Shown one piece after another: positions 6,001 through 62,274 of a stretch of DNA of 64,000 bases. The notes below the pieces were generated by a model. It did not search any database. It was not told the origin of the DNA and worked only from the letters and a program-made list of their open reading frames with translations. The stretch covers positions 124,001-188,000 of the forward strand of contig JAVJQK010000035.1 of NCBI GenBank assembly GCA_040218145.1, read 5' to 3'. The translations under genes and the position numbers were made by a program. Source of the DNA: Sandaracinaceae bacterium (GTDB taxonomy: Bacteria > Myxococcota_A > Polyangia > Polyangiales > Sandaracinaceae). Within the stretch, counting starts at the first letter, position 1. Each line of letters opens with the position of its first letter.

Positions 6001-9000
6001 TTCGCGTTGTCGAAGGGCAGCGCGCGCGCGTAGGCCTGGAAGGCCTCCTGCGTCTGGTCGAGCTGCACCTCGTGGAGCTCCGCCACCTGATGGAGCAGCT
6101 CCACGCGGCGGATGGGGTCCTCTTCGTGCGCGATCTGCACCTCGAGGACGGCGACGAGGCGCGCCGACTCGCCGTACTGGCGGTAGATCGGCTCGAGCAC
6201 GAGCGCAGCCTGGTTGGGCTCCTTGCCCTCCTGGATCATGCGCTCGAGCGCGTCGAGGGTCGGTTGGTGGTCGGGGACCAGCGCGAGGATCTCCCGGTAG
6301 CCGTCGACCGCGCGGGTCGAGTCACCGAGCTTGTGATCCCAGAGATCCGCGATGCGGTAGCGGTAGCTGATGACCTCGTTCGGGTCGCCGGCGAGATCCG
6401 CCGAGCGCTCGAGGATGGCGCGCAGCTCCTCCCAGTTCCCGCTCGCCTGGTAGAGCGCGTCGAGGCGCTGGATGGCGGTCAGGTCGTCCGGGTCGATCTC
6501 GAGGATGCGCTGATACGTGTCGATCGCCTTGTCGACGTCGCCGATCTCGCGCTCGTAGACCGCGCCCACCTCGAGGTAGAGCGACTTCTTCTCGTCGGGG
6601 TCGAAGACGATGTCGGCCTTGCGCTCGTAGAAGCCCAGCAGCGGCTGCCACTTCTCGAGGCGCAGGTGCAGCTCGATGAGCTTGTCGAGGGCGCGCACCT
6701 CCTCGGAGTCGACCTCGAGGACCTTCTTGTAGACCGCGATGGCGTCTTCGGGCTTCTCGAGGATCTCCTCGTGGATCGCCGCCGCGCGGAAGAGGTGGTC
6801 CTTCTGGTCCTCCGGGATGTCGAGGATCTTGGCCTTCTCGAGGAGGATGGCCGCGAGATCCGGGTAGCGCTCCGTCATGTGGAAGAGCCGCTCGAGCGCC
6901 GTCGCCGCTTCGATGTGATCGGCGTCGAGGCTGAGCACCTGCTGGTAGTGCGCGATGGCCGTCTCGGCGTCGCCGAGCTGCTCCTCGCGGATGGTCGCCG
7001 CCTTGACGTGCAGCTGGGTCGCCAGCGAGACGTCCTCGAGGCCCTCCACGCGCTGCTCGTAGACCTGCGCGAGCTGCTCGAAGGCGCCGGTGGCGCGCGC
7101 GATGCGCTCGAGCTGCTCCTGCGTGTTCAGGTCGGCGGGGTCCTCGCCGAGCGCGCGCGCGAAGGAGTGGAACGCGTTGCCGTAGTCCTCGAGCGCGACC
7201 TCGTAGAGCTCCGCGATCTGATGCAGCAGCTCGACCTTCATGTCGGCGCTGTCGGCGTGCGCGGCCTGGATCTCGTGGACCTGGATCAGCTTCTCGTACT
7301 GACTCGAGTCGCGGTAGATCGGCTCGAGGATCCCGGCGATCAGGCGCTGGTGCTCCTCGCTCTGGATCAGCCGCTCGAGCGCCTCGAGCGCCGCCTCGTT
7401 GGACGGATCACGCTCGAGCACCTCGCGGTAGATCTCGATGGCCGCGTCGACCGCGCCCATCTGCGTCTCGCGCAGCGCGGCGAGCCGGAGCATCAGGGAC
7501 GTCTGCGCCTCCGGGTCGTCGGCGATCGAGAGCTGTCGGCCGATGTTGTCGGCCAGGTCGCTCCAGCGCTCGAGCTTCTCGTAGAGGCGGTCGAGCGCGA
7601 CGAGCGCGCGCTGGCTGGTCGGGTCGAGCTCGAGGATGTCGCTGTAGACGCGGATGGCGCTGTCGGGCTCCTCCAGCATCTCCTCGTAGATCATCGCGTT
7701 CTGCGCGAGGAGCTCCTCCTGGAGCGTCGGGTCGTCCGCGAGCTCCGCCTTGCGGCGCATCACGCCGAGGAGATCTCGCCAACGCTCCGTGCGACGGTAG
7801 AGCGCGTCGAGGGCGTCGAGCACCTCTGCGTCGCCCGGATCCGACTCCAGGATCTGGTTGTAGTCGCGCACCGCCGCGTCGACGTCGCCGATCTGGCCGT
7901 CATGGATCTGCGCCGCGCGGAGGTAGAGCGCGCGGGACAGCATCGGCTCGGTGGTCTCGCCCGCGAGCTTCTCGAGCAGCTTCACGAGGTCGGCGAAGCG
8001 GTTCTGCTCGCCCGCGAGCAGCTCGAGCCGCTCCAGGGTCTGCTGGCTGTCGGGCATGACGCCGAGCGCGCGCCCGAAGGCGTCGAACGCGGCGTCTTGA
8101 TCGTCGAGCTGCGTCGACTGCACGGTGCCGACCTTCTCGAGCAGCTCGAGACGTCGGTGCGGGTCGCCCGCCCCCGCCGCGAGCACCTCGAGCGCGCGGA
8201 TCAGCGGCTGCCACTGGCCCTGCATCTCGTAGATGGGCTCGAGGATCGTCGCCGCGTGGGTGCCGAGGCCCTCGGTGTCGAGGAAGCTCTCGAGGCGCTG
8301 ACGCGCCCCGTCGTGCTCGGGCACGAGCATGAGCACCTCGCGGTAGAGCTCGAGCGCCCGCTCGGCCTCCGTGAGGTGGTCGGCGGCCACGTTCGCGAGC
8401 CGGAACTTCAGCGCCGCGAGCTCCTCGGTGCTCTCCGGCCCGAGGTCGATGCGTCGCTCGAGGGTCGAGGCGAGGTCCGCCCAGCGCTCCTCCGCCTCGT
8501 ACAGGCGGTCGAGCGCGGCGTACGCGTCGGACTCGTCGTCGCCCCACTCGTCGAGGATCCGCTGGTAGGCGTCGATCGCGTTGTTCGCGTCCGCGAGCTC
8601 CGACTCCCAGAGCGAGGCCCGCCCGTAGGCGAGCTGACGGCGCACCTCGGGGTCCTCCTCGAGCTCCATGCGGCGCTCGTAGATGTCGAGCAGCTCGCGG
8701 TACTTCTCGGTCTGGCGGTAGAGCGTCTCGAGCGCCTCGATCGCCTCGAGGTTGTCGCCTCGCGCGTCGTAGACGGCGCGGTACTGCTCGATCGCCTCGT
8801 CGATCTTCTCGACGTGGGCGAGCAGGCGCCCGAGCTGGAGCCGGAGATCGGTGGCGACGTCCGGGTCGGTCGCGCCCTCGATCGCCTCGCGATAGGCCGC
8901 GATGCCCTCGTCCCAGCCGTTCGTGGCCTCGGCGAGGCGCGCGACGTCCTCGCGGATGATCTCCTGCGTGGGATCGGTCTTGAACGCCTCGAGGAACGCG

Positions 9001-10208
9001 TCGAACGCTTCCTTCGGCTTGCGGAGCTTCTCCTCGTAGAGCAGCCCGCTCTCGCGCAGGAGGTGGACCCGCTCGGTCGGCTCCTGCGCGTGCTTGAGGC
9101 GCACCTCGTAGACACTGACGAGCTTGCGCGCGTCGCCCGCCTCTTCGTAGATGGGCGAGAGCGCGAGCGCGGCGTCGAGGTTGTTCTCGTCCTTCGAGAG
9201 GATCTTCTCGTACGCGCGCGCCGCCCGCTCGGGCTTGTCCTTCTGCTCGATCCAGAGCTTCGCGGCGCGGAAGAGGAGCTCCGTGCGCTCCTCGTCGGTG
9301 GTGTCCTTGCCCTCGGCCTCGCGCTCGAGGGTGCGGATCAGCTCGTCCCACTTCTCCGTCGACGCGTAGAAGCTCTCGAGCTCGTCCCAGGCCTTCAGCG
9401 ACACGTAGCGCCGCTTGAGCTGCTCCTGCGCCCGACGGTCGTCGGGATCGAGGGTGAGCAGGCGCTGGAACGCGCGCACCGCGCCCTCGTCGTCGCCGAT
9501 CTTGTCGGCGTAGATCATCCCGAGCTTCTGCAGCGCCTGCTTCAGCTCGTTCTCGTCGGCGATCTGCTCGACCCGCTTGTCGAGCACCTTCGCCAGCGGC
9601 TCCCAGTCCCGCGCCCGCTCGTAGAGCTGCGAGAGAGACTCGAGCGCCTCGTGGTTGTCCGGGTCCTCCTCGAGGACGGACTGCCAGAGCTCGATGCAGA
9701 TGTCGGGCTTGCGGAGGCGCTGCGTCGCCAGCTGCGCGATCTCGACGTACTCGAACAGACGATCTGCCTCGTCCATGAGCTTCGCCGCGCGCTGACGGAT
9801 GCGGACGAGCGACTCCCAGTCCCGACGCTTCTCGTAGCTCTCCTTGAGCTGCCCGATCGCCTCGAGGTTGTAGGGGTCGTGCTCCAGGACCGCCTCGAAG
9901 CACTTGATGGCCTCGGCCTGGTTGGACGACTTGTCCAGGTACATGCGCCCCGCCTCGGCGTGGAGCTCGACCTTCTGCGCGGGGTCCGGATGCAGCTCCG
10001 CCTTGGCCACGATCGCCTTGATGACGTCGGACCAGCGCTTCTGCTCGGTGTACTTCGCGATGGTCTCGTCGAGCTCGGCGAGCTGCGCGAGCTCCTCCTC
10101 GGTCGGCTCGCGGCCCGGAGCCGGGCCTGCCGTCTCCTCGACGCTCTCGTCCATCTCGATCTCGGGGCTCTCGTTCTCCTGATCCGACACGGAGGCCTCC
10201 CTGGTCAC
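87..10208 (-). CDS. gltI: giant TPR-repeat protein, GltI/AgmK-like
   Basis: This 3,373-residue protein has no signal peptide and no membrane segment, so it is probably cytoplasmic. Roughly residues 30-3000 are dozens of degenerate TPR-type helical hairpins in a recurring pattern: an ALE-x-LY helix, ERW-x-EL, then AIxxYxxVLExDP. The last ~330 residues are not TPR and resemble an M48-type peptidase domain without its HExxH zinc site. In Myxococcus xanthus the Glt gliding machinery includes GltI (AgmK), a cytoplasmic TPR giant of similar size next to gltG and gltH; size, architecture and position all match. The start is GTG at 10208; no closer ATG fits as well. It is the last gene of the cluster in this window. 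A scaffold role is inferred from the family. An Nfs-type or other paralogue cannot be excluded. Confidence 0.8.
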   Translation of the reverse strand: MTREASVSDQENESPEIEMDESVEETAGPAPGREPTEEELAQLAELDETIAKYTEQKRWSDVIKAIVAKAELHPDPAQKVELHAEAGRMYLDKSSNQAEAIKCFEAVLEHDPYNLEAIGQLKESYEKRRDWESLVRIRQRAAKLMDEADRLFEYVEIAQLATQRLRKPDICIELWQSVLEEDPDNHEALESLSQLYERARDWEPLAKVLDKRVEQIADENELKQALQKLGMIYADKIGDDEGAVRAFQRLLTLDPDDRRAQEQLKRRYVSLKAWDELESFYASTEKWDELIRTLEREAEGKDTTDEERTELLFRAAKLWIEQKDKPERAARAYEKILSKDENNLDAALALSPIYEEAGDARKLVSVYEVRLKHAQEPTERVHLLRESGLLYEEKLRKPKEAFDAFLEAFKTDPTQEIIREDVARLAEATNGWDEGIAAYREAIEGATDPDVATDLRLQLGRLLAHVEKIDEAIEQYRAVYDARGDNLEAIEALETLYRQTEKYRELLDIYERRMELEEDPEVRRQLAYGRASLWESELADANNAIDAYQRILDEWGDDESDAYAALDRLYEAEERWADLASTLERRIDLGPESTEELAALKFRLANVAADHLTEAERALELYREVLMLVPEHDGARQRLESFLDTEGLGTHAATILEPIYEMQGQWQPLIRALEVLAAGAGDPHRRLELLEKVGTVQSTQLDDQDAAFDAFGRALGVMPDSQQTLERLELLAGEQNRFADLVKLLEKLAGETTEPMLSRALYLRAAQIHDGQIGDVDAAVRDYNQILESDPGDAEVLDALDALYRRTERWRDLLGVMRRKAELADDPTLQEELLAQNAMIYEEMLEEPDSAIRVYSDILELDPTSQRALVALDRLYEKLERWSDLADNIGRQLSIADDPEAQTSLMLRLAALRETQMGAVDAAIEIYREVLERDPSNEAALEALERLIQSEEHQRLIAGILEPIYRDSSQYEKLIQVHEIQAAHADSADMKVELLHQIAELYEVALEDYGNAFHSFARALGEDPADLNTQEQLERIARATGAFEQLAQVYEQRVEGLEDVSLATQLHVKAATIREEQLGDAETAIAHYQQVLSLDADHIEAATALERLFHMTERYPDLAAILLEKAKILDIPEDQKDHLFRAAAIHEEILEKPEDAIAVYKKVLEVDSEEVRALDKLIELHLRLEKWQPLLGFYERKADIVFDPDEKKSLYLEVGAVYEREIGDVDKAIDTYQRILEIDPDDLTAIQRLDALYQASGNWEELRAILERSADLAGDPNEVISYRYRIADLWDHKLGDSTRAVDGYREILALVPDHQPTLDALERMIQEGKEPNQAALVLEPIYRQYGESARLVAVLEVQIAHEEDPIRRVELLHQVAELHEVQLDQTQEAFQAYARALPFDNANEHTMGSLERLADQLGGWNEVTRLYDVEIEKLRESEPDLLVDMALRVAQIYFIQVEDVDSAIARYRIVLEADEHHIQAIEALDQLYEQTERWAELAGILQKEVQLAPSPEDVLAFQFRLGQVYQHYLNRIDDAIEQYREILAAEPEHSQALGALEMLFAEGVQPLKIGEILEPLYRMSESWDRLIGVQQIQLRYQEDPEERVSMMHRLAEIAEDRASDHQLALEWMQRALLENPTHDHSASEVERLAAMLDRWDQLANTYADVLATHEAPEVVVEVGKRQARIYELELGDVQRAVESYLFVLKANDRERETLENLDRIYTEHGAHEALAETLKKRVAAAEDELSKVELSYRLGWVLENDLGRIDEAVGVYQGILANLDPEHENAIKALQNIYTEKQDWQSLYASFQKELDVVLGDTARSDVTAKMARIASDALQDYDKAIELWKEVLDLRGEDPEALNALGNLYAGLERWAELVEILDREVTVAEDDETRIRIFADMARIFYMRLQKERSAIDSWERVFDIDPTNAEALFGLAEIYERAGQHHERVDTLNRLIDVGAATLDDATLETVYMQLGTLYEHTLEQPVDAIESYRRGLEINPRNFAAMDALERIHRREGEWIDAIQVMETRAAGLDDPGQKVQVLLALAEAWAVHVQDADQGTSAYERVLEHDPNHQLAFDNLEQLHSAAGRWEPLVEMYLNRVESTEDTAEAVELLRRVARVYEEHIDDKDEAFNALQVAWEMDFTDRATSNELERLAGLTQQWNELLNLANTALSQVPDDDAETKIAICLSCAKWYGTELGHPEYAIPYYQQILALDPANAAAMRQMADLYRSTQQWQTLGQVLERLVDVTEEPKDKATVLVEMGALCEDQLATPEQAGRYYQQALDVAPDHVGALEALERTFRREGRWNELLDVLQRKADALEDPDKILETRLLIAENYEDRINDPEQAIDVYQKVLEVDATNLNALKGLERLYAQREQWRELLQVLERQYEVVTTERDRISILTRLASMWEEEFVKPEKAAERLEQVLDIDPNNETALRGLERLYRSMQRWDDLIATYERHVSATPDRTEKVECYAAIGQVYSVEIDDADRAIDSYLNLLAIDEDNAGALDALTRLYEKREDYSQALDMMQQLSRQISEPKQVVDLRFRMGRILDQQLADRDAAVDSYRAALDVEPGHLPSLAAMRKIYIDSGDWLAAARTLEQETQYQQNPRQTSALLVELGRLYDERLDEHDRAIQCYEAAAKQDEDNEEAALPLAEEYVKAGRHEEAYPLLDVLVKRAGKREEHEQHRLSLMLGETALKLEKSEAAIKALTKAYQLDQQHLPTLLKLADAYYQAKDWEKAFKYYQMLLVHHRDSLGRDEITDVFFKLGIVKREQGDRRKALNMFDKALEEDPHHRPTLEAMVSVYEAANDFEQVIHYKKQVLDIADIEERFGLLDEIGDLWHEKVKNSQKAIEAYVEAAALEPDNHRLLHKLLMLYQTTRQWDEAIEIIQRVSDLDDRKAAKAKYAYTVAVILRDEVKDTDRAVEKFNEALDLDEKQLKAFEAINKILNQKKDWKQLERAFRKMLHRISGKDDRDQDLEYNLWHNLGVIYRDRLKQYENAAEAFRVASTIREQDTEHVILAELYTLLGKLDEAISEHQWLLRRDPYRVDSYQKLYKLYFDARAYDKAWCLARTLTFLNKADAEQQQFFADNRPSGPIRPTNRLNDERWLKDLASSEQDLLVSKIFEQIWPAVLSLRIQNDKDAGLNKKHEVDPANSTVTFARTFGFVANVLGMPAPRLFLRTDVQGGLTHMPVYPLASLSGATLLSGFQPSDLMFVAGRHLSDYRPEHYIRTMLKSNTELKTVLMAGLRLSGVVPQVEPAAEQAAQQIATKMQPAQRDALRSLAKRFVDAGARTDIKKWLQAVELTSCRAGLLVCNDLETAARMVTQLGAAGPVDLPPKEKVKELVLFSVSEEYFRLREQLGIRIPLA

Positions 10209-11457: not shown

Positions 11458-13431
11458 CTAGCCCTGCGAGCTGAGCACGAACGGGTAGTTCACGCCGACC
11501 ACGCCGCCGCCGTCGGGCGCCGGGAAGGTCCAGCGACGCACCGCGCCGGCGATGCAGCTCTCCACCCGCTGGTTGTTGATGGTCGAGTTACCGACCGAGG
11601 CCGACTGCACCGCGCCGGTGGGCGAGATGATGAAGCTGACCATCACGCGACCCTCGAGGTCGGGGCGCTGGTTGAGCTCCTGCTCGTAGCAGAACCGGAC
11701 CTCGTTGATGTGGCGTCGGATGACGCGCCGGATGACCTCACGGCTCAGCGAGCCGCGAACGTCCGCGTTGCCGGTGCGGATGGTGGGCACCCGCGCCGAG
11801 CGACCGCGCAGGCCGCCCGCACCGCGACCGTAGCCGCTGCCCGTGCCGCCGCCGCCGCCGTGGCCGATCGTGCCCAGGTTGCCGAGGCCGATCGTGCCCT
11901 CGCCGGTGCCGCCGCCGCCGCGGCCGGTGCCGCGCAGGCCGAGGCCGCCGAAGCCGAAGTTGCTGCCGATCTGGTCACCCATGAGCGCGCCGATCGCGCT
12001 CATCGGGTCGTTGCCCATCGCCTGGTCGGCGCCGTAGGGCGAGGTGGGCGAGTTCCACGAGCCGGTCATCGCGGCGAGGACGCCGATCGCGCCGACCGTC
12101 GCGGCCTGCTCGCGGGCCTGCTCACGCGCCATCTGCGGGTCCTGGTTGTCCTGCGGGCCCTCGATGGCGTAGCGGTTGTTCGTCTTCTCGGACGCCTCTT
12201 CGCCCATCGCGCCCTCTTCGTCGCGATGGCGCTTGCCGGTGCCGCCCTCGTTGTCGTCCAGCTGGTCCTCCTGGAGCCACTCGGGAGTCTCCTCCTCCTG
12301 GGTCTCCGGGGGCTCCATCAGGTACTCCACGAGGCGGGAGTCCGCGCTGAGCAGATCGAGCGAGAGCGAAGCCGGCCGCGGCGGCAGGAAGTAGAACATC
12401 AGGAGCATCGCGCCGTGCACGGCGACCGAGACCGCCGTCCAGATGTAGCGCTTCCACTCGATGTCCATGCCGGCGCCGACCTTGCGGCCCGCCGACGTGC
12501 TCTTGGTCATGAAGGTGAAGCCCTTGTAGCGGACCTTCGCGACCGCGCCGGCGGGGAGCGGATACATCATCGCGCCCTGCATCTCGCTGGCCGGCTGGAG
12601 CTTGCCGCCGGCCTTGAGATCGGCCCAGCTCATCGTCTGGTCGCCGACGGTGACCTCCCCCTCCGCGCCCTCGGGGACCACGACCGCCGCGCCGCCGCCC
12701 GTCTGGACGACCACCGGCATGCGCTGCGTACCCAGCACGGAGGACTCGAGGAGGTAGTCGGTGCCGGCGCCCTCCCCTACGTAGAAGTTCCGCGGGGGAG
12801 AGAGGTGCTCGACGTGGAGCACGCTCATGTCGCCCCACATGATCACGACCTCGGCCGCGCTCTCGCTGCTCTCGACCTCGGACGGGTTGACCGGCGGGCC
12901 GCTCGCCGCGATGCCGTAGCGGACGTCGCCGCCCGCGCCACCGGTCGACTGCTGCGGGGCCGGGGCCGCCTGGGCCGGGGCCGCGAACGGGTTCGGGAGC
13001 GCGCCGCCGCCCGCGCCCGCGTTGGTCGCGAACGGGTTGGCGGCCGTCGGCGCCGGGGCGGAGGCCACCGGAGCCGCCGAGGCAGCGGGCGCAGGCGCCG
13101 CGACGGGCGCCGCCTCCTGGGCCGGAGCGCCGCCGATCTCGACCACCACGCGGGTGTCGCCGAGCACGACCTCGTCACCGCTCTGCAGCTGGGTCTTGTT
13201 GACCTTCTTGCCGTTGACGATCGTGCCGGCCGCCGACCCGAGATCGATGATGAAGATCTCGTCGGGCCCGGTGACCTCGATCACCGCGTGCATCCGGGAG
13301 ACGTTGTCGTCCTCGATCCGCAGGTGGCTCGACGGCAGCTTGCCGACCTTGATGATGTCCTGGGTCAGCGTCTCGGTGCGCTCGAGCTCGTCGCCCTTGT
13401 AGATGCTGAATGTGAGGGGGACCTTAGACAC
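11458..13431 (-). CDS. gltG: FHA - transmembrane - TonB/AgmX C-terminal protein, GltG/PglI-like
   Basis: This 657-residue protein has an N-terminal FHA phosphothreonine-binding domain (about residues 15-98; conserved G30, S46-R-M-H and the N73-G loop). An Ala/Pro-rich linker follows (100-170), then a second folded cytoplasmic region (190-310), one membrane helix (330-350), an acidic and Gly-rich periplasmic stretch (370-545), and a TonB-like AgmX/PglI C-terminal domain (556-657) with the Cys pair C581/C626 typical of that family. This order matches GltG of M. xanthus, an inner-membrane protein that spans to the outer-membrane platform during gliding. The start is GTG 13431 behind a GGGAGAG site. 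It lies 81 bp after the GltF-like gene and probably shares its transcript. The NfsG paralogue is the main alternative. Confidence 0.88.
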   Translation of the reverse strand: MSKVPLTFSIYKGDELERTETLTQDIIKVGKLPSSHLRIEDDNVSRMHAVIEVTGPDEIFIIDLGSAAGTIVNGKKVNKTQLQSGDEVVLGDTRVVVEIGGAPAQEAAPVAAPAPAASAAPVASAPAPTAANPFATNAGAGGGALPNPFAAPAQAAPAPQQSTGGAGGDVRYGIAASGPPVNPSEVESSESAAEVVIMWGDMSVLHVEHLSPPRNFYVGEGAGTDYLLESSVLGTQRMPVVVQTGGGAAVVVPEGAEGEVTVGDQTMSWADLKAGGKLQPASEMQGAMMYPLPAGAVAKVRYKGFTFMTKSTSAGRKVGAGMDIEWKRYIWTAVSVAVHGAMLLMFYFLPPRPASLSLDLLSADSRLVEYLMEPPETQEEETPEWLQEDQLDDNEGGTGKRHRDEEGAMGEEASEKTNNRYAIEGPQDNQDPQMAREQAREQAATVGAIGVLAAMTGSWNSPTSPYGADQAMGNDPMSAIGALMGDQIGSNFGFGGLGLRGTGRGGGGTGEGTIGLGNLGTIGHGGGGGTGSGYGRGAGGLRGRSARVPTIRTGNADVRGSLSREVIRRVIRRHINEVRFCYEQELNQRPDLEGRVMVSFIISPTGAVQSASVGNSTINNQRVESCIAGAVRRWTFPAPDGGGVVGVNYPFVLSSQG

Positions 13432-13512: not shown

Positions 13513-13767
13513 TCAGAGATTCTCGACCGACTTGAGCATCTCGGGGATGAAGTGCTCCCGGACCCGGATCAGCGAGGCGCGGCGGCCTCGGCGACGGACG
13601 TTGAGCATCTCTCCATCCGGCCGAACCAGGTCACCCGTGACCAGGTCGTCCTCGAAGTCGTACGTGGTGTCTGCCCCGTCCTGTGCGAACGAGACCGCCG
13701 GTGACGCGAAGGCGCCCGCGGCGACCAGGCCAACTCCCAATCCGAGTGCGATGAGAAACTTCTTCAT
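13513..13767 (-). CDS. small secreted protein with DFEDDLVTGD motif, GltF candidate
   Basis: This 84-residue protein starts at ATG 13767. A classical signal peptide (MKKFLIALGLGVGLVAAGAF, cleavage after AQ at about residue 29) leaves a mature protein of only ~55 residues. Residues 34-53 read TTYDFEDDLVTGDLVRPDGE, followed by a basic patch (NVRRRGRR) and a short amphipathic tail (SLIRVREHFIPEMLKSVENL). The motif recurs almost unchanged in the VIT/VWA protein at 55914-58268. Position between the gltE-like and gltG-like genes matches gltF in M. xanthus; I infer the identity mainly from position. The function is unknown; a periplasmic partner of the GltG TonB domain is a reasonable guess. Confidence 0.75.
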   Translation of the reverse strand: MKKFLIALGLGVGLVAAGAFASPAVSFAQDGADTTYDFEDDLVTGDLVRPDGEMLNVRRRGRRASLIRVREHFIPEMLKSVENL

Positions 13768-14005: not shown

Positions 14006-15415
14006 TCAGCCCTCCCCGCCCGCGGACTCTCCCCCACCCTCGGCGGGGGCCTGCTGTTGCTGCTGCTGCTGCATCTGCTGCTGCATCTCCTGCAGCTCGG
14101 TCTGGATCCGGATGTTCTCCTCGATCTGCTGGATCCGGCCGGGCCGACAGTCGCCGACCCACTCGCTCTGGCCTTCACGGCGACGCCGGCGGCCAGTCGT
14201 CGGCCGGCGACGGCAGCTCCGGGTCACCGTCTCCACGGTCGACGCGTAGGCCGCCTCGCTGCCCGCGCGCTGCGTGAACTGCTGGTAGAACTCACGGGCC
14301 TGACGCAGATCGGGGATCTGGCCGCCCTTGAAGTCCTGGTACAGCAGGCCGAGGTTGAAGTACGCCTCGGGTCGCGCCGCCTCGAGCTGGATGGCGGCCC
14401 GGTAGGTCGCCTCCGCCTCGTCGAACTGGCTGAGGCCGCGCTGCGCTGCCCCGAGCCCGATGATGGCGTCGTAGTTGTCGGGCTGCAGCTCGCGGGCACG
14501 CGAGAAGGCCCGCGCCGCGTCCTCGTAGCCGCGGAAGCTGATCGTCAGCTGGCCGAAGTTCATGTAGGCCTCGAACAGCTCGTCGTCGAAACCGAACGCC
14601 CGCTCGAACTTGGCGAGCGCCGCGATGATGTTCCCCTGGCGCACGTTGATCAGGCCCCAGGTGTTGTAGATCGGCGCGTACCGCGGGTTGATGAGCTGCG
14701 CCTGACGGCAGACGACCTCCGCGAGGTCGAGCATCTGCCGGTTCTCCTCCGCCTGACCCAGGTAGAGGAGCGCCATCTGGTTGAAGGCCGGCAGGTAGTC
14801 CGACTCGATCGCCAGGGCGCGGCGGAGGTTGTTCAGACCCTCGCGCACCTCGGCGGGGTTCGAGCGCTGGATGATGGCCAGGTTGACGTACGCCGCGGTG
14901 CACTGGTTGTCGTTCGCGATCGCGCGCTCGAAGTGCTGACGCGCCTGCTGCGTGCGCCCCGCCCGCATGTCGGCGAGGCCGACACCGACGCGCGCGCCGC
15001 AGTAGTTCTCGTTCGTCGACATCGCCTGCTGGTAGAACGAGAGCGCCTGCTCGTCGTTGCCGCAGCGGCCGCTGACGACGCCCAGCATGTAGATGGCCTC
15101 GGTGAAGCTGCCGCCCTGCGCGCCGTTGGCCTGCTCGAACTTGGCCTGCACCTGCTGGCACGACTCCGTCGTCCAGCCGACCTCGGCGTCCGCCGCGTCG
15201 TGACGCTCGAACATCGCGATCGCCTCGCGCCAGTGGTTGTGCGCCTCCTCGGTCACGGCCGAGCCACCCGCGGTGCGGATGACGTTGCCGCTCTCGTTCG
15301 TGGCGGCGTTTCCTTCGGCGCCTCCGCCACCGCAGCCGATGGCGGACGCGGAGAGCGCGAAGGCGAGGGAGAGCAGAGAGAGAGTGCGTACGTGGGTCAT
15401 CGTCGTGCTCATCAT
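14006..15415 (-). CDS. gltE: TPR lipoprotein, GltE/AglT-like
   Basis: This protein has 469 residues from ATG 15415; ATG 15412 or 15400 are close alternatives. Lipoprotein signal: a hydrophobic run ending SASAIGC followed by a Gly/Asn-rich spacer, so it is probably outer-membrane anchored. About residues 55-400 hold eight or more TPR hairpins. A basic Arg-rich patch follows, then a Q-rich C-terminal tail (EMQQQMQQQQQQQ) encoded by a CAG-rich tract. In M. xanthus GltE (AglT) is a TPR lipoprotein of similar length following gltD. Its ATG overlaps the gltD stop codon (TGATG), so the two are translationally coupled. The TPR lipoprotein call is certain; orthology rests on order, size and architecture. 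Confidence 0.82.
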   Translation of the reverse strand: MMSTTMTHVRTLSLLSLAFALSASAIGCGGGGAEGNAATNESGNVIRTAGGSAVTEEAHNHWREAIAMFERHDAADAEVGWTTESCQQVQAKFEQANGAQGGSFTEAIYMLGVVSGRCGNDEQALSFYQQAMSTNENYCGARVGVGLADMRAGRTQQARQHFERAIANDNQCTAAYVNLAIIQRSNPAEVREGLNNLRRALAIESDYLPAFNQMALLYLGQAEENRQMLDLAEVVCRQAQLINPRYAPIYNTWGLINVRQGNIIAALAKFERAFGFDDELFEAYMNFGQLTISFRGYEDAARAFSRARELQPDNYDAIIGLGAAQRGLSQFDEAEATYRAAIQLEAARPEAYFNLGLLYQDFKGGQIPDLRQAREFYQQFTQRAGSEAAYASTVETVTRSCRRRPTTGRRRRREGQSEWVGDCRPGRIQQIEENIRIQTELQEMQQQMQQQQQQQAPAEGGGESAGGEG

Positions 15416-18400
15416 CAGTTCTCCGTCGCCCCGTCGGGGATGGAGCTGTCCTCGTCCTCGGCGTCTTCCTCCGTCTGGAGTCGGACCGCGCCCGGACGAG
15501 CGACCTGCCGCTGGATGTAGTTGGCCTCGCCCCGGAGCTCCGCCGCCATCGGGTAGCGGGCTCGGTCGAGCTGGTTCAGCTCCTGCTCGCACTGCTGCGA
15601 GAACTCGTTGAACCAGCGGACGCGTGTGGCGGTGGTCAGGCAGAACTCGAACTTGTCCATCGCCTGCGCGTTGAGCGGCCGGGCCGCGCCCTCGAGCGCG
15701 TCGACGTAGATGCCGTACAGCTCGTCGTCGTTCTCGATCTCTTCGGGGATGGGAGCGCCGCGGATCTGGTCCATGAAGCTCCGGTACATCTCACCGACCC
15801 GCGCGGCGGCGGCGATCTGCCACTCCGGAATCTCGAGCTCGGCGATGCGGTTGTAGGCCGCCTCCGCCTGCACGAGCGCCTCGCGCTTCTCGTTCAGCCA
15901 CTCGGCGAAGTCGCGCTCCGCCCAGCGCTGCACGCGCTGGAGGCTGCGGCCGCCGCGGAAGCGCGGGAAGCGGATCAAGCGGAAGGCCGCGTACTCGTAC
16001 TCGGCGAGGTAGAACAGCGCCTCGCTGGTCGCGTCCTTCGCGCGGGCCAGGTAGAGCTGCTTGTCCTCGTCGCTCACGTCGTCGAGGCCCGCGATGCGCT
16101 CCCCGGCGTTGCGCGTCCACTCGCGCACCGCCGACTCGAAGTAGCGCTTCGCGTCGTCTCGCTGCTCGAGCTCCCACTGCGAGCGGCCCATCTGGACGTT
16201 CGCCCGGATGACCTCGTGCGGCAGGGCCCGTCGCCCGTAGCTGCGCAGCCAGCCGCGGTAGTGCTGGAACACGCGCTGCCAGTTGTCCTGCCGCTCGTAG
16301 ATCGAGCCCAGCGAGAACATGACCTGGGAGGTCTCGCGCGGCATGCGTTGGCGGTAGTTGCGTTCGAACAGCTCCGCGTCGTCGACCGCTTGCTCCTCCT
16401 GGCCGAGACCCAGCCGGAAGAACACCGCGTTCTGCAACGCTTCGTGGGCGATGGCGCAGGTGCCGGCCTCTCGCTGCTCGTCGGTGCAGTCGCTGCCGTC
16501 CTCGCCCGGGTACTCCCGCGCGAAGCGCTCGTACCACTCCGCCGCCTGGTTGTAGATGGCGAGCGCGTGGTAGTTGGCGCCGACGAGGAAGATGGCGCGC
16601 CGCGCGAGCTGGCTCTCCGGGAAGTTCCGGATGAGCACCGTGCGGACGCGGATGGCGCGACCGAGGAGGCGCGCCGCCTCGTAGTTGATCGACGCGTTGT
16701 AGAGGACCTCGTCGAGCCGGCCGCACTCGCGGTGCTCGCGCGCGATCGTCACGTACGTCTGCGCGGCGTCGCGGAAGCGCTCCTCGCGGGTCGCCGCCTC
16801 GGCCTGCAGCCGCAGGGTGTCGCAGCGCAGCTGGTCGAGGACCTGGCAGAGGTCCGCGTGCTCGTCGCGCTGCCCGCTGTTGGCGCAGTAGGCCCCGGCG
16901 AGCGGCTCGATGTTCTCGCGGATCTCGCCGATGCAGCTCGTGCGCTGCCACTGCGTGCCCATGATGTTCAGCGAGTCGAGGTAGAGGTTCGCCGCGTACT
17001 CGCTCAGGTCGCTGTCCTGGTGGTTCAGCGCGATGTCGCGGAAGATGACGGCCGCCTCTTCGTACTGGTTCGACTCGTAGTAGATGCGAGCGCGCCGGTA
17101 CTTGATTTGCGGCAGCTCGTCGCTGTCGTTGACGAAGCAGACGAACCGGTTGAACGCATTGAGCATGCCGTTCTCGGTCTCGTTCAGCTCGCGCGGTACG
17201 TAGCGCGTGGCCTCGTTCCGCTCCGCTTGCTCCGCCTCGCAGCGCCTCAGCCGCCGGCCACGCATGCCCTCGCAGGGGTTGTCGTCGCCGACCGCGCCGC
17301 CGCGCACCTCGCGCTCACGGCCCTGGTACTGCTGCTGGTAGAGGTTGTTGTAACAGAGCACCGCCGCGTAGGCGGCGTCCTGGGTGAACTCGCCCTGCGG
17401 GTTCAGCTCCACGACGCGGTCGAAGGCCGGACCACAGGTGGCCCAGTCCTCCATCCGCCAGAGGAGCTCCGCGAAGAAGTACGAGACCCGGTACTCGGTC
17501 GGCCAGTCGCGCCGGTCGATGTCCGGGAACTGCATCTCCTCCATGTTCGGGAAGCGATCCAGCACGACGCGGTAGAGCGCCGCGGCGCCGCGCATCGTGG
17601 CCACGTCGTTGGTGCCCGGCTGATCGTCGGTGCCGATCGCCTCGCGGTGCCAGGCGGTGGCGAGCTCGACGAGCACCGCCGCGGTCGCCTGCTTGCACTC
17701 CGTGACCGCCTCGGCCGGGTGGCCGGCGCTCGCGAAGTTCTCCTGGACGTCGACGAGTCGACGGACCTCGGTCACCTGCTCGTCCTTCGGTCTGGACGAG
17801 ATGACCGCGTTGGTCACGCGGCTCTGCCAGTAACACAGCCGTGGCCCCTCGGTCCGCTCCGCCATGAGCCGGTGATAGACCTCGATCGTCTCGGGCCAGT
17901 TACCGGTGTCGTAGTAGAGCTCGGCCAGGCTCTCGAGCATCTCGAGCGCTTGATCGTCGTCGGTCGCGTATCTTCGGAAGAATTCGAGCGCGCGTCTGGG
18001 TGTGCCCACCCGCGAGTATGGCAGCACCAGCTCCCGCCGCGACTGCCGCGCGAGGTTGGCCGCGTCACGCGCGTCGGGGTTCTGCTGGGCGAACTCGACC
18101 GTGCGCACGAACTGCGTCAGCGCGCCGCGGAAGTCCTCGAGGTTGTAGAGCGCCCACGCTTGCTTGTAGAGCGCGTAGCCGTAGACCGGGTTCCGGTCGG
18201 CTGGGATCTCGGTGACCTTCGAGTAGAACTGCTGCGCCGCGCGCATGTCTCCCTCGCCGAAGTAGTACTCGGCGAACGACAAGTAGGCGTGCGGAATGAA
18301 GCGCGACTGCGGGAAGCCCTTGATCAGGCGGTGATAGACCTGACGCGCCCGCTGGAACTGCCGCATCTCCTCGAGGCCGAAGGCCAGCGAGAAGAGGACC

Positions 18401-19095
18401 TGGTCCATGTTCCGGTAGTTCGGGTAGTCGCGGACGAGGCGCGCGTAGGTGCGGATCGCCTCCTGCCGGAAGTTCTGGAGCTGCTCCTCCATCTGCCGCT
18501 GACGCTGCTGCAGCTGGCGGACCTGAGACGCGTTCTTCGACTGGCGCGCCTCGAAGATCGGCTGATCCATCGAGCGGGCCTGGGTGTTGTAGTACTGCTG
18601 CAGCTCGAACTGCGTCTCGGCGAGCCGGAGCAGGTAGTCGGCGCCGCGCGGGTCGCCGGCGCGGGTGCGGCCGACGAGACGCTCGAGCACGGTCACCTCA
18701 CGCTGGAGGAGGTTGAGCGCCCGGGCCTCGATCCGATCGCGGTTGCGGCGGGTGGCCGCGTCGATCTCGATCGACGGGCCGGTCATGCCGCCGCTCTTCG
18801 ACTCCTCTTCGCGGCGCTTCGTCTCCCGGAAGTGAGACGCGACCTGGCTGTCGACGCCGGTCGGACGCGATCCCGCCCGTTTCGATGGCGGGGGCGCGTT
18901 GTCGGGACAGCGCTCGACGTTCTGCCGCGCGTCGGGCCGAATACAGACGCCCCGCGGCGCCGAGGGGATGCCCTCGGGCACGGCGGACGCCGTGGAGGCG
19001 GCCTCGCCCTCTCCCTGCGCGCCTACCGCGAGCGGGATACCGCCCGCGAGGAGCCCGGAGGCGACTACCAGAAGTGCCAGTCGATTGCGACGCAT
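15415..19095 (-). CDS. gltD: large periplasmic TPR protein, GltD/AgmU-like
   Basis: The protein has 1,226 residues from ATG 19095, preceded by an AGAGG site; a GTG at 19104 adds three residues. A signal peptide (MRRNRLALLVVASGLLAGGI, then PLAVGAQ) directs export to the periplasm. A disordered, Arg/Glu-rich segment follows, and the rest is divergent TPR-like repeats with many paired Cys residues, including a CEGMRGRRLRRCEAEQ stretch. Near-identical length and position to M. xanthus GltD (AgmU, ~1,218 residues), a periplasmic TPR component of the gliding machinery, support the assignment. It lies 74 bp after gltC and overlaps gltE. The NfsD spore-coat paralogue is the alternative. Confidence 0.83.
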   Translation of the reverse strand: MRRNRLALLVVASGLLAGGIPLAVGAQGEGEAASTASAVPEGIPSAPRGVCIRPDARQNVERCPDNAPPPSKRAGSRPTGVDSQVASHFRETKRREEESKSGGMTGPSIEIDAATRRNRDRIEARALNLLQREVTVLERLVGRTRAGDPRGADYLLRLAETQFELQQYYNTQARSMDQPIFEARQSKNASQVRQLQQRQRQMEEQLQNFRQEAIRTYARLVRDYPNYRNMDQVLFSLAFGLEEMRQFQRARQVYHRLIKGFPQSRFIPHAYLSFAEYYFGEGDMRAAQQFYSKVTEIPADRNPVYGYALYKQAWALYNLEDFRGALTQFVRTVEFAQQNPDARDAANLARQSRRELVLPYSRVGTPRRALEFFRRYATDDDQALEMLESLAELYYDTGNWPETIEVYHRLMAERTEGPRLCYWQSRVTNAVISSRPKDEQVTEVRRLVDVQENFASAGHPAEAVTECKQATAAVLVELATAWHREAIGTDDQPGTNDVATMRGAAALYRVVLDRFPNMEEMQFPDIDRRDWPTEYRVSYFFAELLWRMEDWATCGPAFDRVVELNPQGEFTQDAAYAAVLCYNNLYQQQYQGREREVRGGAVGDDNPCEGMRGRRLRRCEAEQAERNEATRYVPRELNETENGMLNAFNRFVCFVNDSDELPQIKYRRARIYYESNQYEEAAVIFRDIALNHQDSDLSEYAANLYLDSLNIMGTQWQRTSCIGEIRENIEPLAGAYCANSGQRDEHADLCQVLDQLRCDTLRLQAEAATREERFRDAAQTYVTIAREHRECGRLDEVLYNASINYEAARLLGRAIRVRTVLIRNFPESQLARRAIFLVGANYHALAIYNQAAEWYERFAREYPGEDGSDCTDEQREAGTCAIAHEALQNAVFFRLGLGQEEQAVDDAELFERNYRQRMPRETSQVMFSLGSIYERQDNWQRVFQHYRGWLRSYGRRALPHEVIRANVQMGRSQWELEQRDDAKRYFESAVREWTRNAGERIAGLDDVSDEDKQLYLARAKDATSEALFYLAEYEYAAFRLIRFPRFRGGRSLQRVQRWAERDFAEWLNEKREALVQAEAAYNRIAELEIPEWQIAAAARVGEMYRSFMDQIRGAPIPEEIENDDELYGIYVDALEGAARPLNAQAMDKFEFCLTTATRVRWFNEFSQQCEQELNQLDRARYPMAAELRGEANYIQRQVARPGAVRLQTEEDAEDEDSSIPDGATEN

Positions 19096-20840: not shown

Positions 20841-20865
20841 GGGCTCGTCCCCTATTCCGTCCGAA

Positions 20866-20897
20866 TGGACCGTCACCAGTAGAGTGGACCGTCATCA
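20866..20897. repeat. 13-bp direct repeat in the gltC leader
   Basis: TGGACCGTCACCA (20866-20878) and TGGACCGTCATCA (20885-20897) match at 12 of 13 positions and start 19 bp apart. They lie 26-57 nt before the gltC start, inside the predicted 5' leader. They could be a regulator or RNA-binding site. No regulator is identified. Confidence 0.5.
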
Positions 20898-54925: not shown

Positions 54926-55068
54926 GGGTCGGGTCTTCAGTACGCAGACTCGATACCCCATCCGGACGGCGCCGCGGACTCGTGCAAGTTCGGGCGTGCG
55001 GTCGGGCGTGCGAGCTCGGGCGTGACCCATTCAGATCCTTAGTGATTGCGTTCCCAGCGGGAGGGGCG

Positions 55069-55728
55069 ATGCAGAAGCTGACCCAGAGGCAGAAGGCCGT
55101 TCTCGAGTACATCTGCGAGTCGATCCAGGACCGGGGCTATCCGCCCACCCTACGAGAGATCGGCAACCACCTCGGCATCAAGAGCACCAACGGGGTCAAC
55201 GACCACCTGCGCGCGCTCGAGCGCAAGGGCTACCTGACGCGCGAGGACATGAAGTCCCGGACCCTCCGCCCCACCGCGGCGGTCAGCGACGAGCTGCAGA
55301 TGGATCCCTTCGGCTCCAGCCCCGCCAACGACTCCGAGATGATCGAGATCCCGATCCTCGGTCGGGTCGCGGCCGGTCTGCCCATCGAGGCCATCGAGCA
55401 GCCGGAGGACACCGTCCGCATCGACAAGATGCTCGTGGGCGGCAAGGGCACCATCTTAGGGCTCCGCGTCGCGGGCGACTCGATGATCGAGGCCGGCATC
55501 CACGACGGCGACTACGTCTTCGTGCGCAAGCAGGTCGAGGCGCCGCGGGGCGCGATCGTGGTCTGCATGGTCGGAGACGAGGCGACCTGTAAGTACTTCT
55601 ACCCCGAGAAGCAGCACATCCGCCTCGAGCCGGCGAACAGCGAGATGGCCCCCATCCTCATCCCGCGCACCGACTGGCGCGAGACGAGCATCCTGGGCAT
55701 CGTCGTCGGCGTCTACCGCAAGATCTGA
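55069..55728 (+). CDS. lexA: SOS repressor LexA
   Basis: The protein has 219 residues from ATG 55069. N-terminal winged-helix domain (QRQKAVLEYICESIQDRGYP; recognition helix around TNGVNDHLRALERKGYL), a hinge, and a S24-type C-terminal protease domain. The self-cleavage site is Ala102-Gly103 (RVAAGLP); catalytic Ser138 (AGDSM) and Lys175 (CKYF) are present. RecA-stimulated self-cleavage should derepress SOS genes. A matching operator lies upstream. Confidence 0.96.
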   Translation: MQKLTQRQKAVLEYICESIQDRGYPPTLREIGNHLGIKSTNGVNDHLRALERKGYLTREDMKSRTLRPTAAVSDELQMDPFGSSPANDSEMIEIPILGRVAAGLPIEAIEQPEDTVRIDKMLVGGKGTILGLRVAGDSMIEAGIHDGDYVFVRKQVEAPRGAIVVCMVGDEATCKYFYPEKQHIRLEPANSEMAPILIPRTDWRETSILGIVVGVYRKI

Positions 55729-55913
55729 CGCCTCCTTCGACGAGCCCTCTTCCCGTGGGGCAGCTCGTCCCGATGGAGCGCTCGGGCGGTCGCTTCGGCG
55801 GCCGCCCTTCTTTTTTTGGTCGGATCTTCGGAGTCCCGGAGAAAAGCGCGCCTCGACAGATCCTTCGCTCGCCTCGCCCGTCGGAGCCTCCCCACCACCC
55901 CGGGGAGGAGACC

Positions 55914-58268
55914 ATGCGGAACACGGCGCGGCTCGCGCTCGCTCTCGGAACCATCGTCGTCGCGCTCGGCAGCGCCGGCCGCGCGCACGCGGTGGGCTAC
56001 CTCGTCCCGACCGACCGCGCCGTGGAGCCGCTCGCGATCCGCTACCACCGGGTCTCGGCGTCGATCCGCGAGCGCGTGGCGGAGACGCGGGTCGAGCAGA
56101 CCTTCCGCAACCACACGAGCCAGGTGCTCGAGGCGACCTACCTGTTCCCGGTCCCACAGGGCGCGACCGTCAGCGGGTACGCCATGTGGGTCAACGGCGA
56201 GCGCCAGGAGGGCGAGCTGCTCGACGCGGGCCAGGCCCGCCAGGTCTACGAGCAGATCGTGGCGCGCATGCAGGACCCGGGGCTGGTGGAGCACATCGGC
56301 GGCCGGCTCTTCCGGGCGCGCGTCTACCCCATCCCGGCCGGCGGTGAGCAACGGGTCGAGCTGCGCTTCACCCAGACCCTCGACTACCAGGGCAGCGTCG
56401 TGCACTACCGCTACCCGCTGCGGACGAGCGGACAGGCCGCGCGGACGCTCGAGGACTTCACCTTCAGCGCCGACGTCGTCTCGCGCACGCCCATCCGCGC
56501 CGTGTACTCGCCGACCCACCCCGTCGCGGTGGCGCGCCCGAGCGAGCACCACGCCACCGTGGGCTTCGAGGCGCACCAGGCGGTGCTGGAGGAGGATCTC
56601 GACCTCTACTACGCGGTGCAGGACCGCGACGTCGGCCTGAGCCTCCTGACGCATCGGCCGCCCGGCGACGACGGCTACTTCCTCGCGCTGATCGCGCCGC
56701 GCGCGGAGGTGACGGAACGGGAGATCGCGGCCAAGGAGGTGATCTTCGTCTTCGACACGTCGGGCTCGATGGCGGGCGAGAAGATCCAGCGCGCGCAGGC
56801 CGCGCTCGACTACATGCTGCGGCGGCTCAACCCGAGCGATCGTTTCCAGGTGATCCAGTTCAACACCGCGGTGGAGACGCTCTTCGATGGCGGCAGCCTG
56901 CCCGCCAGCCCCGCGAACGTCGGCCGCGCCCGCCAGTTCGGGCGGCGCTTCGTGGCCGCGGGCGGGACCGCGATCCACGGAGCGCTCGAGGAGGCGCTGC
57001 GCCACCCCGCGCGGCGCGACATGCCGCGCCTCGTCGTCTTCCTCACCGACGGGATGCCGACCGTCGGGCACACCGAGCCGGCGCGCATCCTCGGCGACGT
57101 GACGACCTGGTCGCGCGCGTCCCGCGTGTACGTCTTCGGGGTCGGCGACGACGTCAACACGACCTTCCTCGACGCGATCGCGGAGCGGACCGGCGGCGTG
57201 GGCGACTACTTCCGCGACGGGGCCGAGATGGAGCGGCGCCTGAGCGCGTTCTACGACCGCGTCGCCTATCCGCTCTTCACCGATCTCCGGCTCGCGTTCC
57301 CGGGCGCCGAGGTGCACGACGTCTATCCGCGCGACCTCGGGCATCTCTATCGAGGCGGGCAGCTCATGGTGGTCGGTCGCTACCGCGGCGCCGGGCCGAC
57401 GCAGGTCACGCTGACCGGGCGCCTCGCCGGCGCAGCCGAGACCCACCGCTTCAGCTACCCCGTGAGCCTCCCCGAGCAGGAGGCGCGCAACGACTTCCTC
57501 CCGCGGATCTGGGGCACGCGCAAGATCGGCTTCCTGCTCGACGCCATCCGTCTCAACGGGGAGCAGCCGGAGCTGCGCGAGGAGGTGGTCCGCCTCGCGA
57601 CGCGCTTCGGCATCGTCACGCCCTACACGAGCTACCTGGTGGTCGAGGACGAGGCCCTGCCGCCGGGGCTTCGGCCCCCACCTCCGATCGCGCGCGGCGG
57701 TGGGGACGGCGAGACGACCTACGACTTCGAGGACGACCTCGTCACGGGCGACATGGTGCGGCCCGATGGACAGCTGCTCCAGATCCGGCCGCGTCGAGGT
57801 GCCGGGCGGGCGCGACGCGCGCAGCACGATTTCCGCGGGTTCCAGGGCGCCACGGCGCCCTCCGCGGAGCCTGGCGGCGGGGGCACCTCCGCGGTGGCGC
57901 CCTCCCCGGCGCCCTCGGCCACGGGCGAGTCGGGGCGTCGGCTCGCGAGACGCCTGCGGGAGATGCGGGAGGCGGAGCGCACCGAGTCGGTGCCGAGCGC
58001 GAGCCGCTTCGTGCTCGGTCGCCCGTTCAGCCTGGTGGCCGGCATGTGGGTGGACAGCCACTACCGCCGCGCCATGCGCTCGCTGAGCCTGCGCGCGGGC
58101 AGCGAGGCGTGGATCGCGCTGCTGCGCTCGCGGCCCGATCTGCGGCCCGCGCTCGCGCTCGGCGCGCGCGTCGCGGTGGCCATCGGCGACGGCCGCGCGG
58201 TGCTCGTGGACCCCGGCGCGCCCGAGGGCGTGTCCACCGCTCAGGTGGAGAGCTTCCTCTCCCTCTGA
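55914..58268 (+). CDS. VIT/VWA-domain exported protein with GltF-like motif
   Basis: The protein has 784 residues from ATG 55914 with a GGGGAGGAG site. The signal peptide is MRNTARLALALGTIVVALGS to AHA. A VIT domain (~40-170) and a von Willebrand A domain (~275-455) follow; the metal-site DTSGS (281-285) is intact. After ~590 the chain is Pro/Arg/Gly-rich and contains TTYDFEDDLVTGDMVRPDGQ (601-620), identical at 18 of 20 positions to the small GltF-like protein. Unlike typical inter-alpha-trypsin-like bacterial proteins no C-terminal membrane anchor is seen. It is probably periplasmic or surface-located. A link to the Glt-like machine is suggested only by the motif; the VWA adhesin CglB of M. 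xanthus gliding is a thematic parallel. Confidence 0.88.
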   Translation: MRNTARLALALGTIVVALGSAGRAHAVGYLVPTDRAVEPLAIRYHRVSASIRERVAETRVEQTFRNHTSQVLEATYLFPVPQGATVSGYAMWVNGERQEGELLDAGQARQVYEQIVARMQDPGLVEHIGGRLFRARVYPIPAGGEQRVELRFTQTLDYQGSVVHYRYPLRTSGQAARTLEDFTFSADVVSRTPIRAVYSPTHPVAVARPSEHHATVGFEAHQAVLEEDLDLYYAVQDRDVGLSLLTHRPPGDDGYFLALIAPRAEVTEREIAAKEVIFVFDTSGSMAGEKIQRAQAALDYMLRRLNPSDRFQVIQFNTAVETLFDGGSLPASPANVGRARQFGRRFVAAGGTAIHGALEEALRHPARRDMPRLVVFLTDGMPTVGHTEPARILGDVTTWSRASRVYVFGVGDDVNTTFLDAIAERTGGVGDYFRDGAEMERRLSAFYDRVAYPLFTDLRLAFPGAEVHDVYPRDLGHLYRGGQLMVVGRYRGAGPTQVTLTGRLAGAAETHRFSYPVSLPEQEARNDFLPRIWGTRKIGFLLDAIRLNGEQPELREEVVRLATRFGIVTPYTSYLVVEDEALPPGLRPPPPIARGGGDGETTYDFEDDLVTGDMVRPDGQLLQIRPRRGAGRARRAQHDFRGFQGATAPSAEPGGGGTSAVAPSPAPSATGESGRRLARRLREMREAERTESVPSASRFVLGRPFSLVAGMWVDSHYRRAMRSLSLRAGSEAWIALLRSRPDLRPALALGARVAVAIGDGRAVLVDPGAPEGVSTAQVESFLSL

Positions 58269-58325
58269 GCGAACGGGAAGTGACGTCGACCTCGGGACGC
58301 GCACGCCGCGCGAAGGGAGAGGTGC

Positions 58326-59057
58326 ATGAAGAACGTGATGATGACGATCGGAGGAGGCCTGGCGGGGGCGATGATGCTCGCCACTGCCTGGGTCGGCCGC
58401 GCTCACGCGGTCGAGATCTACCCGGAGACGATCCCGCCACCGCGCGTGATCGTCGTGACCCAGCCGAGCGACCCGCCGCCCGTACGGATCGTCGTGCGTC
58501 GCCCTCCCCCGCCCGACCGCGTCCTGATCCGCGTCCGCGCGCCCGAGCCGCGGGCGGCGACCCGCGACGAAGACGCCCCGCGCCTGGTGTTGGGGGCGGG
58601 GATCGGTCCGATGTTCGTGCTCGGCGCCGACTCCGTCGTCCCGGTCGGGCACGCGCACGTGGGGCTCGCGCTCGGTCAGGTCGAGTTCGGGCTGCGACTC
58701 GGGCTCGCGCCCTACGCCGCGTCGCTCTCGAACGTCGACGGCGAGCCGACCGACACCGGCCTCTACACCACCGACGCGACCTTCACCTACCGCTTCCTGC
58801 CCGACGCGGACCTGCACCCCATCCTGGGCGCGGGCCTCGGGGCGGTGATCGCGGCCCCGAGCGGCGCGCCTCCCTCGGCGGGCTTCGGGGTGAGTCTGCG
58901 CGCCGGCCTCGAGCTCGGCGTGGATCTGCCGGACGCGGGCGAGCTCGGCGTGGGGCTCGACGCGATCGGCACCCAGGTGGTCGGCGCAGAGGCCGGCTTC
59001 CCCTGGGCGCTCGCCACCTCGCTCACCGTGGGCGCCCACCTCGACTGGCGATTCTGA
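58326..59057 (+). CDS. secreted protein, probable small beta-barrel
   Basis: The protein has 243 residues. The signal peptide ends GRAHA, the same AHAV junction as in the upstream VIT/VWA protein. A Pro/Arg-rich segment (~30-80; PPPRVIVVTQPSDPPPVRIV) precedes alternating Gly-rich strands (LVLGAGIGPMFVLGAD, HVGLALGQVEFGLRLGLAPY, FGVSLRAGLELGVDLP) that end in Phe (LDWRF), as in outer-membrane barrels. It lies 57 bp downstream of the VIT/VWA gene and is probably co-transcribed. The family is unknown. Confidence 0.72.
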   Translation: MKNVMMTIGGGLAGAMMLATAWVGRAHAVEIYPETIPPPRVIVVTQPSDPPPVRIVVRRPPPPDRVLIRVRAPEPRAATRDEDAPRLVLGAGIGPMFVLGADSVVPVGHAHVGLALGQVEFGLRLGLAPYAASLSNVDGEPTDTGLYTTDATFTYRFLPDADLHPILGAGLGAVIAAPSGAPPSAGFGVSLRAGLELGVDLPDAGELGVGLDAIGTQVVGAEAGFPWALATSLTVGAHLDWRF

Positions 59058-62174: not shown

Positions 62175-62274
62175 GGCAGCGGGAGAATACCGAAATGCAG
62201 CGCCGCGAAGGAAGACGTTTGGAGCGTCACCATTCGGTCGCGCGTGCCCGCCGGGTCGTGTAGCCTTCGTCGCC

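Follow-up and report, generated by a model that had tools for sequence, protein, structure and literature searches.

The gliding machinery of myxobacteria includes several proteins with which the locus described here can be compared. GltF co-localises with focal adhesions, clusters of GltD require GltF, G and H, and GltG binds the motor protein AglR (PMC3169522). GltG and GltJ are TolA/TonB-like proteins carrying TonB_C domains, and their contact sites at the outer membrane have only been guessed at (PMC5349195); TonB boxes in GltA/B are likewise only a guess in published work. The C-terminal domains of TonB and TolA bind their targets via beta-strand addition (PMC12204202), and the gliding adhesin CglB is a VWA protein (PMC13104615). 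Two questions of gliding motility bear on this locus: by which route the force of the Agl motor traverses the periplasm, and which ligands GltG and GltJ grip with their TonB_C domains.

The window, by which we mean the whole 64-kb stretch of DNA that was analysed, contains a glt cluster on its minus strand (Table 1), in which an 84-residue protein is encoded between gltE and gltG, all on the same strand. This protein matched the CglF model NF033764 with E 1.3e-18 over profile positions 31-88 of 88; although its 66.8 bits lie under the curated cut-off of 90, it is CglF as judged by gene order and similarity, and relatives were present in 10/10 genomes of the family. The GltG protein matched NF033760 (E 5.8e-135; 451 bits, cut-off 650) and FHA (1.3e-16). 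The cluster ends with the gene of a 3367-residue protein (87-10190, minus strand), at the place of GltI, a giant TPR protein. Elsewhere in the window, two adjacent OMP_myx_plus barrel proteins (TIGR04565; 27610-28626 and 28641-29546) are possible counterparts of GltA/GltB, the first of which carries tandem repeats, ADMDFGEGGGEGEGG, after its signal peptide. In G009 (L187, 16941-17597), and also in G103 and G261, cglF is duplicated in tandem upstream of gltG, with one copy diverged.

Table 1. Positions of the two block A copies, their host genes and neighbouring features in the window
Feature	Position	Strand	Basis or remark
gltG, FHA + AgmX/PglI C-terminal domain	11458..13431	-	directly follows cglF
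AgmX/PglI (TonB_C-like) C-terminal domain of GltG, candidate docking partner	11473..11748	-	NF033768 E 2.9e-33; TIGR01352 tonB_Cterm 9.4e-7
cglF/gltF, 84 aa, signal peptide + block A + block B	13513..13767 (ORF 13516-13767)	-	NF033764 CglF, gene order
Block B, SLIRVREHFIPEMLKSVENL, conserved C-terminal CglF helix	13516..13575	-	alignment of CglF relatives; model helix 63-82
Block A, first copy, TTYDFEDDLVTGDLVRPDGE	13609..13668	-	in 84-aa CglF/GltF-family protein
gltE-like TPR lipoprotein gene, upstream of cglF	14006..15415	-	NF033758 E 3.9e-26
gltD-like TPR protein gene	15415-19095	-	TPR-type matches
gltC	19170-20876	-	NF033756 E 1.5e-82
VIT/VWA protein, 784 aa from ATG (frame open from GTG 55755)	55914..58268	+	Pfam VIT 1.4e-27, VWA_3 5.1e-22
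Disordered linker holding motif, residues 579-674	57648..57935	+	pLDDT <50, mostly 25-40
Block A, second copy, TTYDFEDDLVTGDMVRPDGQ	57714..57773	+	residues 601-620 of VIT/VWA protein, in disordered linker
Small exported protein, outer-membrane-barrel look, downstream partner gene of VIT/VWA gene	58326..59057	+	sequence, conserved neighbourhood

A CglF motif recurring in a VIT/VWA protein

An alignment of CglF relatives contained two conserved blocks: block A, the motif under study, with the pattern [YF]-x-F-[DE]-x-x-x-[VI]-x-G-x-[LIVM]-x-x-P-x-G, and block B, a C-terminal helix with the consensus SLIRxREHFxPEMLKSVENL. A weak AlphaFold2 model of CglF (mean pLDDT 51, 5 sequences) places strands at residues 42-48 and 54-60 (pLDDT ~64-69) with the RPDG turn between them, followed by a helix at 63-82, so that block A and the adjoining EMLNVRRR (to 13585) are modelled as a low-confidence beta-hairpin. 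No solved relative of CglF was found in the PDB; the designed WD-repeat proteins returned by the PDB profile search were rejected as spurious, since only the short VxGxxxxPDG was matched.

The sequence-only reading of this DNA had proposed that the motif recurs in a second exported protein with two substitutions, and that it is held by selection on the protein rather than by recent copying of DNA. Both the sequence and the coordinates were right: the second copy differs from the first by L to M and E to Q, the first being encoded on the minus strand (the plus strand over 13609-13668 reads LSIRPNQVTRDQVVLEVVRG). Weak similarity extends beyond the 20-mer to about 28 residues (EMLNVRRR versus QLLQIRPR). 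When the 20-mer was searched against the 11-Mb genome of the organism itself, the two sites of the window were recovered at E 1.5e-8 and 5.5e-8, and the third match, a CglF paralogue on another contig, had an E of 1; by these values the similarity of the two copies is not due to chance. Nucleotide identity between them is 52/60 in the motif versus 24/60 and 29/60 in the flanks. The same codon is used at 12/18 conserved residues, where independent choice with this codon usage predicts 9.8 +/- 2.0; because silent sites are at the level of independent choice, no recent DNA copy is visible, and a recent copy or gene conversion was rejected. The peptide was thus held while silent sites were randomised, in agreement with the earlier proposal. 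Signal peptides, assigned throughout with a simple hydrophobicity script and by eye rather than with SignalP, were seen by inspection on both carriers, which are therefore exported, as had also been claimed. A profile search of the same genome to E 10, combined with a DNA pattern, returned no carriers besides CglF, the VIT/VWA protein and a single paralogue of CglF; the remaining DNA-pattern matches that were inspected resembled housekeeping proteins or chance.

The second carrier consists of a signal peptide, a VIT domain, a VWA domain, a disordered linker and a small C-terminal domain, and the closest PDB fold to its structure model is 6fpy (inter-alpha-inhibitor heavy chain 1). Within the linker, the motif itself is modelled at a pLDDT of ~25-30. 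The protein matches NF033764 in the motif stretch only (residues 652-680 of the 837-aa frame, E 5.4e-6); it has block A and lacks block B. A downstream DFxxF was considered as a leftover of block B and rejected, as the same DFxxF is found in orthologues without block A; on this distribution the DFxxF of the linker is older than the block A insert. Orthologues of the VIT/VWA protein were found across the order and adjoin lexA in several genomes, an adjacency kept across genera (window 55042-59057; L177, L178, L179, L180, L188), and in many genomes the gene is followed by that of a small barrel-like exported protein. Beyond this neighbour in the window, a gene on the minus strand (59076-62276) encodes a 1066-residue protein in which several FHA domains are fused to an ABC transporter of ABC-2/pigment-permease type.

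Among these orthologues, those of the window's species and of G005, a genome from a different genus (TTYRFDDDLVSGDVVRPDGE), carry block A. G003 retains a degenerate version (FQFEDQQIEGDLVRPEG), G002 has lost it, and G007, G008 and the f5 genomes do not have it; a scan of genomes with the single protein returned mostly ordinary VIT/VWA proteins without the motif, plus some CglF genes. Between the window and G005, 15/20 motif residues are identical, as are 419/554 in the folded domains, versus 6/20 in the linker preceding the motif, and the linker after it gives a gap-ridden alignment. The motif is therefore conserved like the folded domains while the adjacent linker diverges, which indicates selection on the motif.

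Block A in other exported proteins of the Myxococcota

Carriers were surveyed by profile searches of overlapping draws of Myxococcota genomes, about 530 different genomes in total. The sequence-only reading had called for such a wider search, and block A proved to extend beyond the window's pair, to the CglF family and to about ten other exported proteins that lack the rest of CglF. CglF-type genes were found in many families and are of two kinds: CglF proper, with a block B containing SLIxxRxxF, and CglF2, with FYDFDDMLIDGxxKxP followed by LLxLKKSF.

VIT/VWA carriers span four lineages, namely the window's species with G005, G419 (L229), G445 (L252) and G451 (L257). In G419 (FYNFDDTNVEGSLVKPDG) and G445 (YNFEGDDISGELLKPSG) the motif occupies the same linker slot as in the window's protein. 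The motif of the G451 VIT protein (KFYDFSDQLIDGDIKKPTQLY) equals that of CglF2 of the same genus over 22 residues, with 56/66 nucleotides and 12/22 codons the same; judged by sequence, this VIT/VWA-CglF2 pair is a repeat of the window's case in another class. A different VWA protein carries block A in G007 (TTYHFDDAQIEGDLRR) and G008 (TTYDFADAQIEGDLRR), as do a DUF2330 protein (G407), an A2M-like protein (G501) and an AgmX/PglI-domain protein (G316); two weaker carriers, supported by one match each, are a 1052-aa protein in G311 and a 1978-aa protein in G467, where block A lies in the C-terminal tail. For matches outside the training set, the per-genome values were 5.6e-9 (G316), 8.2e-6 (G445) and 1.7e-5 (G501). 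Whether carriers are closer to the CglF of their own genome than to others gave a mixed answer, clear only for the window's family and for G451.

By the simple sequence criterion, a signal peptide was found in 12/12 carriers other than CglF whose N-terminus is intact, where the docking proposal would have failed had carriers been mainly cytoplasmic. Taken with the range of host proteins, this distribution is one of repeated and independent reuse of block A inside unrelated exported myxobacterial proteins. In the literature searched, subscription papers excepted, there was no report of block A outside CglF, and priority is therefore not firm.

Link to AgmX/PglI transducers and the proposed docking role

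An AgmX/PglI protein gene follows downstream on the same strand at 44/54 CglF-type loci from about 20 families, counted where 2 kb or more of sequence follows the gene, in neighbourhoods that were hand-picked across families rather than drawn at random, and with approximate, codon-based gene calls. With 25 AgmX/PglI domains over cut-off in the 11 Mb of the window's own genome, chance adjacency to CglF-type genes would be rare. The pairings are matched: CglF is followed by the FHA-AgmX gene gltG, and CglF2 by a zinc-ribbon AgmX gene matching GltJ (NF033761). In the G316 carrier, one polypeptide unites block A (residues 306-347, NF033764 at E 2.9e-8) with an AgmX domain (residues 393-481, NF033768 at E 3e-12). 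Gene pairing and fusion together tie block A, at the level of sequence, to TonB_C-like transducers. At L261, L262, L265 and L240, the CglF2-GltJ pair has TPR and TPR-lipoprotein genes upstream, mirroring the order gltD-gltE-cglF-gltG; this parallel suggests two transducer modules side by side, CglF-GltG and CglF2-GltJ.

At the other 10/54 loci no AgmX gene was detected downstream, one of them being cut by the contig end inside gltG. GltG-like proteins were present in 40/40 genomes tried. One class of CglF paralogue adjoins the gene of an amidohydrolase-like lipoprotein instead of an AgmX gene. A CglF-like paralogue outside the glt cluster and its partner gene are found on contig 46 of G000 (L175, 8577-8804 and 8905-12204) and also at L182, L183, L186 and L391; the partner gene of that paralogue, in several genera of the family, encodes a large lipoprotein-like product with amidohydrolase-like sequence and calcium-binding-like repeats.

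The sequence-only reading had proposed that the motif docks on a common periplasmic partner, for example the TonB-like domain of GltG. Its view of block A as a docking motif gained ground, as did the link to AgmX/PglI domains, through gene order and fusion; the count of 25 AgmX domains versus three motif carriers in the window's genome does not fit a partnership with such domains in general, and implies that an AgmX partner, if any, must be special (of GltG/GltJ type). We infer a scheme in which CglF/GltF would be a small periplasmic partner of a TonB-like force transducer (GltG, or GltJ in the case of CglF2), with block A as its N-terminal half. The AgmX/PglI (TonB_C) domain at the transducer tip would receive block A, which can form a beta-hairpin, through beta-strand addition, in the manner of TonB and a TonB box. 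CglF would then act as a dedicated adaptor, and block A in the linker of another protein would mark that protein as a client; the VIT/VWA protein would compete with or replace CglF at the transducer, and the Glt motor might pull or position it, perhaps in the role of an adhesin at the surface or in the periplasm. We give about an even chance to this reading, in which block A serves as a portable motif of TonB-box type for docking on Glt force transducers and the VIT/VWA protein is a client; the data suggest a plug by which client proteins may be hooked onto the TonB-like arms of the gliding machinery.

A CglF that did no more than work in the same machine would also produce the gene pairing, and the strongest objection to transducer docking is that CglF regularly lies beside gltE-like genes in a machine of many parts, so that the partner could be another component. 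Candidates for such a component are a GltA/B/H-like barrel of the outer membrane, a TPR lipoprotein such as GltE and a protein associated with peptidoglycan; CglF would still be the adaptor and the VIT/VWA protein still a client. Many CglF-type genes have a GltE-like TPR gene immediately upstream, also at CglF2 or CglF loci without a downstream AgmX gene (L374, L263, L376, L378), a barrel-like gene follows the window's VIT/VWA gene, and the scarcity of carriers relative to AgmX domains points the same way; as each of the two motif variants goes with its own transducer type, GltG or GltJ, and as the G316 protein joins block A to an AgmX domain, we consider such a partner possible but somewhat doubtful. 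Against any client role in gliding, the VIT/VWA gene has no glt genes close by in the other genomes inspected.

Other explanations would leave block A without a docking function. That it is a functionless fragment copied by recombination into a tolerant linker would account for its patchiness in VIT/VWA orthologues (clear in two genera, decayed in G003, lost from G002, not present in G007/G008), and linkers do tolerate inserts; we nevertheless think it unlikely, since the motif is kept at 75% between genera versus 30% for the linker just before it, the peptide has outlasted its silent sites, and the same event took place separately in further lineages and in other kinds of protein. A processing or sorting signal, such as a protease or export-sorting recognition site, would suit the position of block A in linkers and at one C-terminal tail (G467), and GltF-mCherry was reported to be partly processed (PMC3169522). 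In CglF, however, block A forms the N-terminal half of the mature protein with a conserved helix behind it, an arrangement unlike that of a removable tag, and the link to AgmX genes would be left unexplained; we hold this explanation to be very unlikely. A chance resemblance of acidic, low-complexity peptides has in its favour that the looser DNA pattern also matches housekeeping proteins; it is already refuted for the window's pair by the E of 5.5e-8 in the genome, and with the G316, G445 and G501 profile matches and a set of intact carriers that are all exported, hardly any weight is left to it.

On the docking reading, block A is a concrete 20-residue candidate ligand travelling with the transducers; it suggests a role for the little-understood CglF and gives a sequence rule for finding clients of the machine. 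A broader form, a docking code by which GltG/GltJ-type transducers grip any exported carrier of block A, with CglF as the dedicated adaptor and VWA-type clients interchangeable, is put forward tentatively, as less likely than not. If it were true, new adhesins or envelope proteins could plug into the gliding machine by gaining a 20-residue insert.

Comparison with known systems

The 84-aa protein corresponds to the CglF/GltF family (NCBIfam NF033764; M. xanthus MXAN_4868) in being the same small exported protein, in its position between gltE and gltG and in having block B besides block A; the remaining carriers, the VIT/VWA protein included, differ in having block A only, and the VIT/VWA protein is no small secreted CglF. 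With TIGR03788-type proteins (sortase target) the latter shares the VIT and VWA domains (287.7 bits), but it lies under the cut-off of 551.65 bits and has the block A linker and another C-terminal domain.

In the pairing of TonB boxes with TonB_C domains (TonB with outer-membrane receptors, TolA with TolB), a short, exported, strand-capable segment is involved, as block A would be, and block A is similarly tied, by gene order (44/54) and one fusion, to TonB_C-like domains on transducers driven by the PMF. Unlike a TonB box, it is not N-terminal on a TonB-dependent barrel, it is longer (20-28 residues) and its sequence is another; its carriers are CglF, VIT/VWA, VWA, A2M-like, DUF2330 and AgmX proteins. 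In the proposed scheme block A would thus work like a TonB box while not being one by membership. The window's VIT/VWA protein, finally, is of the inter-alpha-inhibitor heavy-chain type with a CglF-like motif, in which it differs from the M. xanthus focal-adhesion protein CglB, a VWA adhesin; like CglB it is an exported VWA protein, linked to the Glt machinery through a candidate motif.
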